From Pseudooceanicola nanhaiensis (GTDB taxonomy: Bacteria > Pseudomonadota > Alphaproteobacteria > Rhodobacterales > Rhodobacteraceae), in assembly GCF_020171315.1 (NCBI RefSeq), contig NZ_JAIUZP010000012.1, positions 62,001 to 126,000 of the forward strand: a DNA stretch of 64,000 nucleotides, read 5' to 3'. The notes beneath the pieces are model-generated. The model saw only the letters and a program-made list of their open reading frames with translations. It ran no database searches and had not been told where the DNA came from. The first letter of the stretch is position 1. The number at the start of each line of letters is the position of its first letter. Of this stretch, positions 58,486 through 62,740 are shown piece by piece. The position numbers and the translations under genes were made by a program.

Positions 58486-58854
58486 ATGCGCAACGCGGCA
58501 TTGATCCTCGGGTTGATCGGGGGCCTCATGGGACTGGTGGTCGGGCTGGCCAGCTACGGCTACACCGCCTTCATCGACGTCTTTGGCGAGGTCGACGGGC
58601 TGTTCTACCAGGTCAACGACGTGGAGCTGATCCGCACCATGTCCGTGCTCTCGCCCATGCTGGCGATCGCCGGGGCCGGGATGGCGCGCGCCCGTGCGCT
58701 CTGGTCCGGGGTGCTGCTTCTGCTGTCGGCGGGGGGCATGTACTGGGCCTTCGGCATGGGGTTCTTCACCATTTTCCCGCTGTTCTTCTGCGGCGTGGCC
58801 GGGCTTATGGCGCTGGCTGCCGGGAAGCCGGACGAAGAGCGGGCGCACTTCTGA
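58486..58854 (+). CDS. Small membrane protein, unknown function
   Basis: A 122-residue protein with about three to four membrane helices (ILGLIGGLMGLVVGLASYGYT at the start, AIAGAGMARARALWSGVLLLLS, then GMGFFTIFPLFFCGVAGLMALAA). Family not recognised. It follows the ArsC-like gene by 34 nt on the same strand, and its last 50 nt overlap the end of the convergent bufD gene. Confidence 0.75.
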   Translation: MRNAALILGLIGGLMGLVVGLASYGYTAFIDVFGEVDGLFYQVNDVELIRTMSVLSPMLAIAGAGMARARALWSGVLLLLSAGGMYWAFGMGFFTIFPLFFCGVAGLMALAAGKPDEERAHF

Positions 58855-59377
58855 GCAGCGCGTCGAGGGAGAGGGGCCCGGCGCCCCGATCCACCAGCGT
58901 CAGAAGCAGGATGATCCACAGCATTCTCTGATCGAGGATCGCCCCGTCCGGGGCGCGGTCGAACCATGCGCCCAGCGTCTGCGCATGGGCCAGAACCCCG
59001 TGGCCGAAGAGATCGGTAAAGGTCTGCACCGCGACGAAGCCGATCATGCCGAGCGCCGCCGCCCGGGTGTAGAGGCCCACAACGATGGCCAGCGGTAGCA
59101 GGAATTCCGCCCACATGCCCCCCACGGCCACGGCCCAGTGAAAGACGGTCAGCTGGCTGGGGTCATAGCCTGCCGCCTCGAACCCGTTGGGAAAGATCTG
59201 CGCATAGGCGCCGGCAGAGGGTTTGAACAACCCCAGCGGGCCATCGCCCACCTTGGTCAGGGCAGAGCCCCAGTAATAGCGCAGCAGCACCGCGGCAAAG
59301 GTCAGCCGCGCCAGCAGGGGCAGGGCGGTCGCAATGGTGCGGGCAAAGAGCGGAGGGGATGTGGTCGTGTCGGTCAT
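58805..59377 (-). CDS. DoxX family protein of the bufferin operon (BufD-like)
   Basis: A 190-residue inner membrane protein with four helices (ARLTFAAVLLRYYWGSALTKV; VAVGGMWAEFLLPLAIVVGLY). DoxX proteins accompany bufferin operons and are thought to act in the membrane. Its ATG overlaps the stop of the upstream HvfC/BufC-like gene. It overlaps the convergent small membrane gene by 50 nt. Confidence 0.88.
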   Translation of the reverse strand: MTDTTTSPPLFARTIATALPLLARLTFAAVLLRYYWGSALTKVGDGPLGLFKPSAGAYAQIFPNGFEAAGYDPSQLTVFHWAVAVGGMWAEFLLPLAIVVGLYTRAAALGMIGFVAVQTFTDLFGHGVLAHAQTLGAWFDRAPDGAILDQRMLWIILLLTLVDRGAGPLSLDALLRSAPALRPASRQPAP

Positions 59378-60141
59378 TGGGTCGTCTCCAGTCCGGTCAG
59401 CGCCCGGCGCGCGATCAGGAGGGAGAGCAGCGGCGTCGGGTCGGTGCCCGTCTCCTCCAGTGCCGCGCCGAGGGTGTCGCCCGCCATCAGCCGATCCAGC
59501 AGGGCGGCATCGGCCTGCGGTAGGGGATCGGCCACGGGGTCAAATTCGGGCCGGGTAACAAGGGCGCATTGGCCACGGGTGCCGATGCTCTGCCCCAGTC
59601 CGAGGGCACGGTTGCGGATGTCGATCACCGGGTAGGGCGAACGCACCACCTGCAGCGCGGGCGCAAGGCGCAGCCGGGTGCGCGGCAGGTCCCCGGTGGC
59701 CAGCGAGGTCAGCGCCTCTGGCGACAGGGGCTCTGCGTCCGCGGCGTGGTAGGCCTGCCGCAGCGCATATTCGAGCCGCGCCACGTCTCCGAGGTAGGGC
59801 CAGCGGGCGAGTGCCTCTGCGGTCTCGAGGAAGGCGGCGAACCCTGCACCATAGAGCGGCATGACCGGAGAGGTCGGCGGATGGCGGCGCAGGTAGATGC
59901 CCGCAACCATGCGGAAGTTCTGCGGCCCCAGCAGCCCGGCCACGGCGGGAAAGCCGCTTTCCAGCGCCTCGCCAAGGGCCACGGCGACGTTGTTGCGATA
60001 AACGGCATAGCGCCGCCCGGCAGGCTGGCCTGCGCCGTCGCTCAGGCCCGCGGGTACCGGCATGTCGCTGTCGAGGAGGGCGGCGCGGAAGGCCTCCTCC
60101 ACCTCCGAGGCAGCGGGCAGGAAGAGCGGCGGCGCGTTCAT
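59374..60141 (-). CDS. HvfC/BufC-family protein (DUF2063)
   Basis: A 255-residue soluble protein of the DUF2063/HvfC family, the usual partner of an MNIO (DUF692) enzyme. Conserved features are [20 protein letters not shown] with [22 protein letters not shown], and [21 protein letters not shown]. It probably helps the MNIO enzyme recognise the precursor peptide. It overlaps both neighbours by ATGA. The ATG at 60141 is preferred over a longer frame. Confidence 0.88.
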
Positions 60142-61004
60142 GAGGGCACCCCGCTTGCGATCCGGTCGAGGGCCCGGGCCGCGCGGGCGGCCTCGGCCTC
60201 CAGCACCGGCCAGTCGGGCACGTCGGTGTCCCATTCGATGAGCACCGGCTTCGGCCCGCCACGGGCCAGCGTCAGGTCCAAGAGCGCCCAGACCGGATCG
60301 GCGACGGGGCGGCCGTGGCTGTCGATCAGCAACGGCGCGCCGTGGTCGTCCGCATCCTCGTCATGGCCGCCGAGGTGGATCTCGCCCACCTTCTCCAGTG
60401 CGAAGCCTTCGATATAGGCGCGGGGATCGAGGCGCAGGTTCACCGCGCTGACGAAGACATTGTTCACGTCGAGCAGCAGGCCACAGCCGGTCCGGCGGCT
60501 GATCTCGGCAAGGAAGCCGACCTCGTCCCAGGTGCTCTCGTCAAACGCGAGGTAGGAGGAGGGGTTTTCCAGCAGCATCCTGCGGCCCAGCACCGCCTGC
60601 ACCTCGTCCACGTGGTCGCAGACCCGGGCGAGGGTGGCATCGGTATAGGGCAGGGGCAGCAGGTCGTTCAGGTAGGCCCCGTCATGGGTGGACCATGCGA
60701 GGTGTTCGGAAAAGCTCTGCGGGTCGAGCCAGTGGCAGAGATCGCGCAGCCGGGCGAGGTGGTCCGCGTCGAGCCGGTCGGGCCCGCCGATGGAGAGGCC
60801 GACGCCGTGCACGGAGATCGGGAAGCGCTCGCGCAGGGCGCGCAGTTGCGCCAGCGGGCGGCCGCCCTGTCCCATGTAGTTCTCGGCGTGGATTTCGAGC
60901 CAGCCGACACAGCCCGGGTCCGCGGCGAGCGCGGTGTAATGCTGCGCCTTGTAGCCGACGCCGGGGGCGGCGGGCAGGGCTTGCATCTGTCTTCGGTCCA
61001 GCAT
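60138..61004 (-). CDS. MNIO family enzyme (DUF692, BufB-like)
   Basis: A 288-residue TIM-barrel multinuclear non-haem iron enzyme. Probable metal ligands are in [52 protein letters not shown] and [15 protein letters not shown]. Homologues oxidise Cys residues of a small partner peptide to thiooxazole-type rings in bufferins. GGAGGA is about 7 nt before the ATG. It lies between the bufferin gene and the DUF2063 gene, with a strong hairpin separating it from the former. Confidence 0.9.
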
Positions 61005-61079: not shown

Positions 61080-61388
61080 TCAGCCGCCCATCGGGTGGTC
61101 ACGCTCCAGCGGCTCGAGCGAGCCCATGCGCGCCATGCCGTGATCGTCCTTGGGCAGGTCGATGGACAGGCAGGTGCCTTCCTCGACCAGCTTCCAGGAA
61201 TTGCCCTGGTAGTCGACTTTCGAGGTGCCGGCGCAGGTGGTGCCGGGGCCCGCCGCGCAGTCGTTCTCGCCCGCCATGGCAACGCCGAAGCACTTCTCCA
61301 TGGTGGCGGCACCCGCTGCAGGGGCCTGGGCGGCGAGGGCCGCGGCGAAGGCGCTGGCAAGGGTCACTGCGGTGGTCTTGGTGGTCAT
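61080..61388 (-). CDS. bufA1: Bufferin precursor, DUF2282 (BufA1-like) RiPP
   Basis: A 102-residue small exported protein. Signal peptide about residues 1-27 ([20 protein letters not shown]). The core has four Cys: [19 protein letters not shown] and GTCLSI, the pattern seen in bufferins that bind copper after modification. The C-terminal tail is His/Met-containing ([13 protein letters not shown]). GGAGG is 7 nt before the ATG; the longer frame upstream crosses the promoter. The first gene of the bufABCD operon. Confidence 0.88.
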
Positions 61389-61438
61389 CTTCGGTCCTCC
61401 GATGTCTGGGAGCGCCGTTGTGGCGTCCATGCTATACC

Positions 61439-61465
61439 CTTCGCCGGTCTCTCCCGGACCGTTAC
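61439..61465 (-). promoter_or_regulatory. SigF-type promoter of the bufferin operon
   Basis: On the minus strand GTAACG (61465-61460), exactly 16 nt, then CGAAG (61443-61439). The Caulobacter SigF promoter, from memory, is GTAACC-N16-CGAA. Transcription would start near 61432, about 44 nt before the bufA ATG. Confidence 0.75.
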
Positions 61466-61523
61466 GGGGCATTTCAGACTATCACGCATCGGTGATCTGA
61501 TTTCGGATTTTCGCGAAAAGGTT

Positions 61524-61550
61524 GTAACGTTTCCGCAGAGCCTCGCGAAT
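61524..61550 (+). promoter_or_regulatory. SigF-type promoter of sigF-nrsF
   Basis: GTAACG (61524-61529), 16 nt, then CGAAT (61546-61550), the same element as in front of bufA but on the other strand. This suggests autoregulation. Start of transcription is expected near 61557. Confidence 0.75.
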
Positions 61551-61560
61551 GGACCCTCAG

Positions 61561-62094
61561 ATGACGACGCGCGACGAACTCTGGTCTGACCTCCTACGCC
61601 GCGCCCTAGCGGGCGACGGTCCCTGCTATGCGCGCTTCCTGCACGAGGCGACGCCGGTGATCCGCAAGATCGCGCGCGCCCGTTGCACGGTGGAGGCCGA
61701 GGTGGAGGACATCGTTCAGGAGGTCCTACTGGCCGTCCATGCCAAGCGCCACACGTGGCGCAGCGATCAGCCCGTCTCGCCCTGGCTCTATGCCATTGCC
61801 CGCTACAAGGCCGCGGATGCCGCGCGCCGGCGGCGGGTGGCCGTCCCGATCGAGGACGTGGTCGAGACGCTGGAGGACGAGGCCGCGGGCGACGTGACCG
61901 CGGCGCGGGACCTTGCCCGCCTGCTGGACGGGATCGACCCGCGGGCCGCGGGCATCGTGCGCGCCGTGGGCGTCGAGGGCGAAAGCGCCGGAGAGGTCGG
62001 CGCGCGCCTTGGAATGAGCGAGGGGGCGGTGCGTGTCGCCTACCATCGCGCAATGACGAAACTGCGCCGGATGGCGGAGGCGGAAGATGACTGA
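61561..62094 (+). CDS. sigF: ECF sigma factor, SigF-like (ECF16 type)
   Basis: A 177-residue sigma-70 family factor. Region 2 includes VEDIVQEVLLAVHAKRHTW and PWLYAIARYKAADAARRRR; region 4 includes EGESAGEVGARLGMSEGAVR and the recognition-type end YHRAMTKLRR. It opens with MTTRDELWSDLLRRALAGD. An ATG at 61549 would add four residues but overlaps the -10 of the predicted promoter, so 61561 is preferred; this leaves a very short leader of about 4 nt. It overlaps nrsF by eight bases and is divergent from the bufferin operon. Confidence 0.87.
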   Translation: MTTRDELWSDLLRRALAGDGPCYARFLHEATPVIRKIARARCTVEAEVEDIVQEVLLAVHAKRHTWRSDQPVSPWLYAIARYKAADAARRRRVAVPIEDVVETLEDEAAGDVTAARDLARLLDGIDPRAAGIVRAVGVEGESAGEVGARLGMSEGAVRVAYHRAMTKLRRMAEAEDD

Positions 62095-62740
62095 GAAGAC
62101 CACAACCGACGACCTGATCGCCAAGCTCTCGGCCGAGCCGGCGCCTGCGCCCACGGCCTCGCCCGAGGCGATGTTGCTGCGCCGGATGGCGCTTGGCTTC
62201 GGGGGCACGCTGGTCCTGTTCTTCACGCTGCTCGGTCCGCGCCCGCAGCTGGGGCTGGCGATGACCGATCCCGTGGTGCTGGCCAAGACGGCGCTGCCCT
62301 TCGTGCTGGCGCTGCTGGCGCTGCCGCTGGCGTTGAACGCGGCCCGGCCTGCCGCCCCGCGCGGCTGGCAGGCACAGGCGATCTGGGTCCTGCCCATGGC
62401 GGCGCTCTCGCTCTTCATGCTGGCCTATGCCACCCATGCGCCCGCCGATCGGCTGCGGCTCTTCGTGGGGCATTCGATCCCGGTCTGCATGCCCGCCATC
62501 GTGACCCTGTCGCTGCCGGTGACGGCGGCGCTGATCTCGATCCTGCGCCGGGGGGCACCGCTGAACCCGCCCGTCTGCGGGGCGCTGGCCGGGCTGGTGG
62601 CGGGGGGCCTCGCCACCACGGTCTACTCGACCTTCTGCACCGAGGATTCGCCGCTTTTCTATTCCGTCTGGTACAGCCTCGGCATCGCCATGGCCGCGGG
62701 CGTGGGCGCCTGGGCCGGGCGCCGCTGGCTGACCTGGTGA
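62087..62740 (+). CDS. nrsF: NrsF-like membrane anti-sigma factor (DUF1109)
   Basis: A 217-residue inner membrane protein with six helices and a cytoplasmic N-terminus that would bind the sigma factor. Cys134 (IPVCMPAI), Cys164 and Cys184 (TFCTEDSPL) are in the membrane/periplasm part; the 50-residue spacing of C134 and C184 matches the two key Cys of Caulobacter NrsF (C131 and C181, from memory) that sense metals or thiol stress. It overlaps sigF by eight bases. Confidence 0.85.
   Translation: MTEKTTTDDLIAKLSAEPAPAPTASPEAMLLRRMALGFGGTLVLFFTLLGPRPQLGLAMTDPVVLAKTALPFVLALLALPLALNAARPAAPRGWQAQAIWVLPMAALSLFMLAYATHAPADRLRLFVGHSIPVCMPAIVTLSLPVTAALISILRRGAPLNPPVCGALAGLVAGGLATTVYSTFCTEDSPLFYSVWYSLGIAMAAGVGAWAGRRWLTW

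Follow-up and report, generated by a model that had tools for sequence, protein, structure and literature searches.

How is a bufferin operon switched on together with the sigma factor that may control it? The question is raised by a 64-kb stretch of DNA (the window), in which a bufferin operon and a pair of sigma and anti-sigma genes stand head to head. An earlier note on this DNA had placed between them a divergent pair of SigF-type promoters, and had supposed that one stress signal, chromate or cadmium, acts through the anti-sigma factor NrsF on both sides. Related systems have been described. The Caulobacter SigF promoter, GTAACC-N16-CGAA, was defined by 5'RACE and primer extension, and the SigF regulon of that organism includes DUF2282-DUF692-DUF2063-DoxX operons (PMC3511200). 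RpoE7 of S. meliloti has the divergent layout, and mapping of the start sites was the basis on which both of its promoters were assigned (PMC6180224). Sigma and NrsF genes occur within Buf1 clusters (PMC12452194), and a Brucella pair of the same sigma group, ECF16, has the consensus (T/C)GTAAC-N17-CGAA (PMC8315932).

Genes of the locus

Profile matches bear out the gene identities proposed in the earlier note, a bufferin operon on the left and sigma and anti-sigma genes on the right. On the minus strand, bufA (61080..61388) codes for a Buf1/DUF2282 bufferin precursor of 102 aa with four cysteines (PF10048, E 4.6e-24), and its start is preceded in the sequence by a Shine-Dalgarno-like GGAGGA (61395..61400). 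It is followed by bufB (60138..61004), coding for the MNIO bufferin maturase (NF050167, 371.8 bits, above the equivalog cut-off of 310) and the sole match to PF05114 in the genome, by bufC (59374..60144), coding for the DUF2063 partner protein (PF09836, E 1.1e-21), and by a gene for a DoxX family membrane protein (58805..59377; PF07681, E 4.4e-6). The four genes are codirectional and have the composition of a Buf1 cluster.

On the plus strand, sigF (61561..62094, 177 aa from its probable start at ATG 61561) codes for an ECF sigma factor with regions 2 and 4 only (Sigma70_r2/r4), and the adjacent nrsF (62087..62740) for a DUF1109-family anti-sigma factor (PF06532, E 3.7e-50, 171 bits with a cut-off of 26.8), both as in group ECF16. 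The cysteines that mark this group are also present: NrsF C134 and C184, the counterparts of Caulobacter C131 and C181, are invariant in an alignment of 15 sequences. NrsF is a member of the PF06532 family and lies outside the narrow NCBIfam equivalog NF042994 (AntiSigF_NrsF), for which it reached 103.5 of the 300 bits needed.

A divergent pair of sigma-F promoters

The two boxes with 16-nt spacers are where they had been claimed to be. On the minus strand, the bufA-side promoter reads GTAACG (-35 box, 61465..61460), 16 nt, CGAA (-10 box, 61443..61440) and then G; on the plus strand, the sigF-side promoter reads GTAACG (61524-61529), 16 nt, CGAA (61546-61549) and then T. The -35 boxes lie back to back on opposite strands, 58 bp apart, and the base 5' of GTAAC is C on the bufA side and T on the sigF side, in agreement with the published ECF16 form. 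These two sites, 61440-61465 (-) and 61524-61549 (+), are the only exact matches to GTAACG-N16-CGAA in the window, for which the mean in 100 dinucleotide shuffles was 0.01, no shuffle having two matches. Genome-wide (4.82 Mb), the 6+4 motif had 5 exact matches vs 7 for a reversed control, and the 5+4 form, GTAAC-N17-CGAA, 7 vs 20. Since neither frequency exceeds that of the control, the genome search suggested by the earlier note defines no regulon, and prediction of regulon members from the motif alone was given up as unusable.

What sets the pair beyond chance is its pairing, its position and its conservation. NrsF matches (E 0.001) were obtained in 42 of 147 genomes of relatives, 59 of 394 of the family and 80 of 385 of the class, and loci were taken for the best matches; another 41 loci from GTDB contigs and 20 regions fetched directly completed a set of 138 (L009-L146). 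In 64 distinct loci of this set, a DUF2282 gene stands next to sigF-nrsF and diverges from it. Among these 64, GTAAC-N17-CGAA is present on the bufA side exactly in 48 and with at most one mismatch in 57, and on the sigF side exactly in 35 and with at most one mismatch in 42. When the spacing was relaxed (GTAAC-N15..18-CG[AT]A), the sigF-side motif was found in 60 of the 64 loci (base shuffles: mean 0.19, maximum 4). Both promoters are exact in 25/64 loci and within one mismatch in 37/64; in 13 of these 37 the promoter starts are 73 bp apart, and in the window and its sister locus (L025 = L039, Maritimibacter alkaliphilus) 84 bp. A perfect palindrome, TTTTCGCGAAAA, lies just upstream of the sigF -35 box (61508-61519); among the spacers compared it was present only in the window's copy and in the sister L025, and it was set aside.

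Two other readings of the promoter pair have to be weighed. The genome-wide frequency of the motif, no higher than that of the control, would fit a chance occurrence without function; however, the motifs stand in the same places in most of the 64 loci, and the orthologous promoters were assigned from mapped starts (PMC3511200, PMC6180224), so that chance appears extremely improbable. A different view is that the working sigma-F switch is confined to the bufA promoter, sigF being driven mainly by other means and its motif giving weak feedback. The Caulobacter sigF promoter, only partly sigma-F dependent, active without sigma-F and weakly induced by Cr or Cd (PMC3511200), would agree with this, as does the lower count of exact motifs on the sigF side. 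Against it stand the relaxed sigF-side motif in nearly all loci, the rise of Caulobacter sigF under copper by log2 2.2 to 4.7 over four conditions (PMC8224329) and the autoregulation of Brucella bcrS (PMC8315932), and we regard a switch confined to bufA as unlikely. The claim of SigF-type promoters is supported.

The arrangement itself is already known in kind and ordinary for the family: an identical divergent pair is found at S. meliloti RpoE7, and the model case is Caulobacter SigF. We located both published promoter sequences in the sequence of the S. meliloti locus, where rpoE7-ecfR7 and SMb20530-SMb20527 diverge as in the window and both promoters have the form GTAAC...CGAA (PMC6180224). 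Compared by genes and promoter, C. crescentus SigF/NrsF and its Buf1 operon CC3254-CC3257 share with the window the promoter, the DUF2282-DUF692-DUF2063-DoxX target and the NrsF cysteines; the C. crescentus regulon differs in having two bufferin operons and also an MsrPQ-like pair, whereas the window's genome has one MNIO gene.

Transcription starts and the sigF start codon

In the rows covered of Table 1 of the S. meliloti study (PMC6180224), five lower-case letters, standing for starts found by two methods, each end their sequence; by our own reading of this table, in which bold type was lost, rpoE7 and SMb20530 start 10 nt after CGAA. Independently of this, 58 of 59 bufA leaders have a purine as the 10th nucleotide after CGAA and 55 have a pyrimidine as the 9th, and the position of this purine coincides with the start mapped in S. 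meliloti. A pyrimidine followed by a purine is the usual look of a transcription start site. From the S. meliloti mapping and this signature, the bufA mRNA is predicted to start at A61430, with a predicted leader of about 42 nt that would begin with a stem-loop and end with a good ribosome site.

On the other side, the sigF -10 box runs into the first in-frame ATG (61549), whose A is also the last letter of the box. The equivalent of this ATG is absent in 30 of the 42 loci with a sigF-side motif of at most one mismatch, and the distance from CGAA to the start codon is 11 nt in 19 of the 42 and 8-12 nt in 27. This comparison, and the overlap of the -10 box with the first ATG, suggest that sigF translation probably starts at ATG 61561 and not at 61549. 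If the transcript starts 6-10 nt after CGAA, the sigF mRNA is probably nearly leaderless, with about 1-5 nt before ATG 61561. A similar case is EcfF-OsrA of B. japonicum (ECF16), in which the mapped start, 6 bp after the -10 box, overlaps the annotated ATG and a distal start codon was proposed (PMC3420878); that system differs in responding to reactive oxygen and in its shorter spacer, GTAAC(g,a)-N14-15-(c,t)CG(t,a).

A conserved dyad next to the bufA promoter

Between the two promoters, 16 bp from the bufA -35 box and 28 bp from that of sigF, lies a dyad, TCACGCATCGGTGA (TCAC-N6-GTGA, 61482..61495), a candidate operator. It is the single TCACG-N5-GTGA site in the window, where 0.44 are expected, so that taken alone it is not significant. 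Across loci, TCAC-N6-GTG[AT] occurs at most 45 bp upstream of the bufA -35 box in 45 of 60 loci (500 dinucleotide shuffles: mean 0.06, maximum 2). This set leaves out L032, L036, L038 and L134, in which the bufA side has no motif within two mismatches, and keeps L136, whose motif is probably misplaced and which was left out of the set of 59 leaders. As some of the dyad's information content follows from the pattern used to find it, we relied instead on its spacing and on a base that the pattern leaves free. Spacing is fixed, with 45 matches at N6 and 0 or 1 at each spacing of 3-5 and 7-11, and 44 of the 45 dyads have G directly after TCAC. In 36 loci thinned to less than 65% identity, a slightly wider form of the dyad is present in 26 (shuffles 0.10).

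In 49 loci (scoring at least 6 of 8) the dyad lies 4-6 bp from the -35 box, and in three, including the window and its sister, 15-16 bp. These offsets suggested strict helical phasing, which was dropped since Rhizobiaceae plasmids added later have 11-12 bp. The S. meliloti locus also has a dyad (ACACG-N4-CGTGA), 11 bp from the -35 box vs 16 bp in the window. Of 14 plasmid loci fetched, 10 with a bufA promoter of at most one mismatch were scored. Among the plasmid loci, the dyad is present in 5 of 6 with an exact promoter and in none of the 4 with CCGTA as the -10 box. The four unscored loci, judged by eye, have GTAAC-N16-CGAA and the dyad (L192, L196), GTAAC and the dyad (L187), or no GTAAC (L186).

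Other sites of the dyad did not lead to its regulator. There are 14 distinct TCACG-N5-GTGA sites in the window's own genome. In 22 genomes of the genus, TCACGAACNNGTGA has 20 sites, of which 12 are at bufA, 7 inside a DedA-like frame (identified by eye) and 1 inside another frame. An intergenic dyad before a ccoN-like gene (by eye) is exact in the window's own genome and in the sister G005, and has 3 mismatches in one other of the 22, and was set aside as not conserved. A search of the 385 class genomes for GTTAC-N4..6-TCAC-N6-GTGA gave 18 matches vs 17 for the reversed control.

Adjoining the bufA -35 box and conserved as it is, the dyad suggests a second DNA-binding input, and it probably binds a second regulator. 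An activator strictly required at bufA is disfavoured, because CC3254 is reported to be solely sigma-F dependent in Caulobacter (PMC3511200). An unknown second regulator was proposed in 2012 for Caulobacter sigF, and was mapped to -37 to +37 of that gene; it need not be the same as the regulator of the dyad, which lies in a different stretch. We found no description of the conserved dyad in the titles, abstract openings and passages covered from the accessible literature on ECF16 promoters and bufferin, a weak negative, as subscription papers are mostly outside that literature.

A predicted stem-loop at the 5' end of the bufA mRNA

From nucleotide 3 of the predicted bufA mRNA, the leader folds into a stem-loop, GGACGCC-ACAAC-GGCG-C-TCC (61409..61428, minus strand). 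Relative to shuffles, the fold of the window's own leader is moderately better (z -1.56 over 56 nt); the case for the element rests on the leader set, in which 49 of 59 leaders begin with a stem-loop. Segments of 30 nt at +4 and +8 after CGAA have mean z values of -2.23 and -2.31 relative to dinucleotide shuffles, 80% and 83% of them being below -1.5; the same scan gives about -1.1 at offsets 0 and 12, and +0.04 to +0.4 from 16 on. In 42 sigF-side leaders the mean z ranges from about -0.5 to about +0.5, whatever the offset. For the 36 thinned leaders the mean is -2.26, with 28 below -1.5. Furthermore, ten plasmid bufA promoters that were obtained once the element had been recognised served as a held-out set, and at +8 the z value was below -1.5 for 9 of 10 (mean -2.35). 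The stem-loop is present in 4 of 16 divergent ECF16 targets that are not bufA (mean z -0.40); three others, which have a 16-base spacer, give no uniform result, with good folding of the two MsrB-like targets at one of two offsets.

In most leaders the stem is predicted to begin at the very end of the transcript. When +1 is placed at the 10th nucleotide after CGAA, pairing sets in at mRNA nucleotide 1 or 2 in 46 of the 59 leaders; the same count is 17-21 with +1 at nucleotides 6-9, 50 at nucleotide 11 and 45 at nucleotide 12. S. meliloti agrees, in that the first pair of its stem-loop includes the mapped +1, the first base of the transcript being paired in the fold. The element is unlike a terminator, since TTTT occurs at nucleotides 25-45 in 1 of the 59 leaders. 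Rfam gave no match at E<=1 in the window between 61300 and 61650, and none at the gathering score in 5 loci.

An inverted repeat at the predicted 5' end of the bufA mRNA is present by computation, and it may act as RNA. The repeat, at about +1 to +20 of bufA, could instead be a DNA operator for a repressor, forming no RNA stem-loop, and several results would accord with that. Folding is as good for the antisense as for the sense strand (mean difference 0.09 kcal/mol; of 59 leaders, 22 fold better as sense and 37 as antisense; Wilcoxon p 0.34). In gapless 6-bp stems, A-C mismatches exceed G-U pairs by 27 to 7, although much of this comes from one clade with an apparent bulged A. RNAalifold found no consensus structure in a MAFFT alignment of 40 thinned leaders, and in an arm-swapping comparison the leaders' own arms paired better than foreign ones by 2.16 pairs of 6, no more than the 2.18 of a shuffled control. 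However, the arms pair above control (5.25 of 6 vs a maximum of 4.83 in 100 shuffled sets, with at least 5 pairs in 35 of 40) while drifting in sequence (0.3-1.2 bits per position), and the loop varies from 3 to 6 nt in the 36 thinned leaders, whereas the upstream dyad keeps one spacing. The repeat also tracks bufferin genes, as the held-out plasmid promoters and the other sigma-F targets show, and it begins at the first or second nucleotide of the predicted mRNA in most leaders. A DNA operator seems the less likely reading.

Our preferred reading remains the RNA stem-loop, which would probably protect the mRNA 5' end and raise the output of precursor. In E. coli, 5'-terminal stem-loops stabilise mRNA, as in ompA and papA. 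The bufA element resembles these in its place at the extreme 5' end, with little unpaired sequence before it, and differs in being a short GC-rich stem, shared by bufferin leaders of many Alphaproteobacteria and known here from sequence. The titles, abstract openings and passages covered from the accessible literature on bufferins and DUF2282 contain no description of it, which is again a weak negative, subscription papers being mostly outside.

Signal and mechanism

The motifs, the genes, their conservation, the dyad and the inverted repeat are features of the DNA, and as a whole they are very probably best explained by a Buf1 bufferin operon with an attached sigma-F/NrsF control cassette of group ECF16. 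We infer sigma-F dependence, release from NrsF, the copper signal and the start sites from the orthologues. At rest, sigma-F would be held at the inner membrane by NrsF; metal stress at the envelope, most likely by copper, would act on NrsF, in whose Caulobacter orthologue the two conserved cysteines are involved. Sigma-F would then be released, and RNA polymerase carrying it would fire the two divergent GTAAC-N17-CGAA promoters, so that bufferin operon mRNA is made to the left, and more sigma-F and NrsF to the right. A structured bufA leader with a good ribosome site and a minimal sigF leader would together tend towards much product and little regulator. By cluster membership, the Buf1 product is predicted to be a copper-binding thiooxazole peptide.

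Chromate or cadmium as the physiological signal gained no support. Caulobacter sigF is dispensable for resistance to either (PMC3511200), and S. meliloti promoter fusions gave no response to Cr, Cd or H2O2, no inducer being found in that study (PMC6180224). Copper is better supported: in C. crescentus it induces nrsF and both DUF2282-DUF692 bufferin operons as well as sigF, and a sigF::Tn5 mutant is copper-sensitive (PMC8224329). This induction, together with the S. meliloti orthologue (PMC6180224), supports joint control of the bufferin operon and the sigma gene as the earlier note had proposed. Its idea of one signal through NrsF appears incomplete in view of the conserved dyad.

These results extend the known sigma-F/bufferin scheme to a Maritimibacter relative, and suggest that bufferin control has two further layers, a widespread candidate operator and a leader stem-loop. 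The promoter pair is ordinary; the dyad and the stem-loop are what is added here and the testable part, being short exact sequences that can be mutated, and the dyad can serve as bait for its regulator. We lean, by a modest degree, towards a general proposal for alphaproteobacterial bufferin mRNAs, in which a 5' stem-loop beginning at the sigma-F start would set mRNA life or translation, and a TCAC-N6-GTGA operator for a second regulator would integrate NrsF with another signal.

Related loci with other arrangements

Among 46 ECF16 loci without a detected bufA, the dyad is present somewhere in 260 nt in 11, and in 3 of these a divergent GTAAC stands 4-5 bp away from it, in front of CcdA/DsbD-like and MsrB-like genes (by eye). 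Ten loci with ECF16 sigma and NrsF genes and no detected bufA (L131, L132, L091, L092, L093, L104, L073, L141, L143 and L144) have as divergent neighbours MsrB-like, CcdA/DsbD-like, DUF1223-like and NPCAA-repeat proteins (by eye), some with the dyad. Three rhizobial plasmid bufferin operons (L191, L192 and L196) have a GTAAC-N16/17-CGAA promoter and the dyad but lack an annotated sigma gene in the stretch covered, and may therefore answer to a sigma factor encoded elsewhere. In Rhizobium sp. L51/94 (L197:1817-2412), two tandem DUF2282 precursor genes precede one MNIO gene, and on a Paracoccus aestuarii plasmid (L195:2127-5771) the bufferin operon is followed by sigma and DUF1109 genes that are codirectional with it and not divergent.
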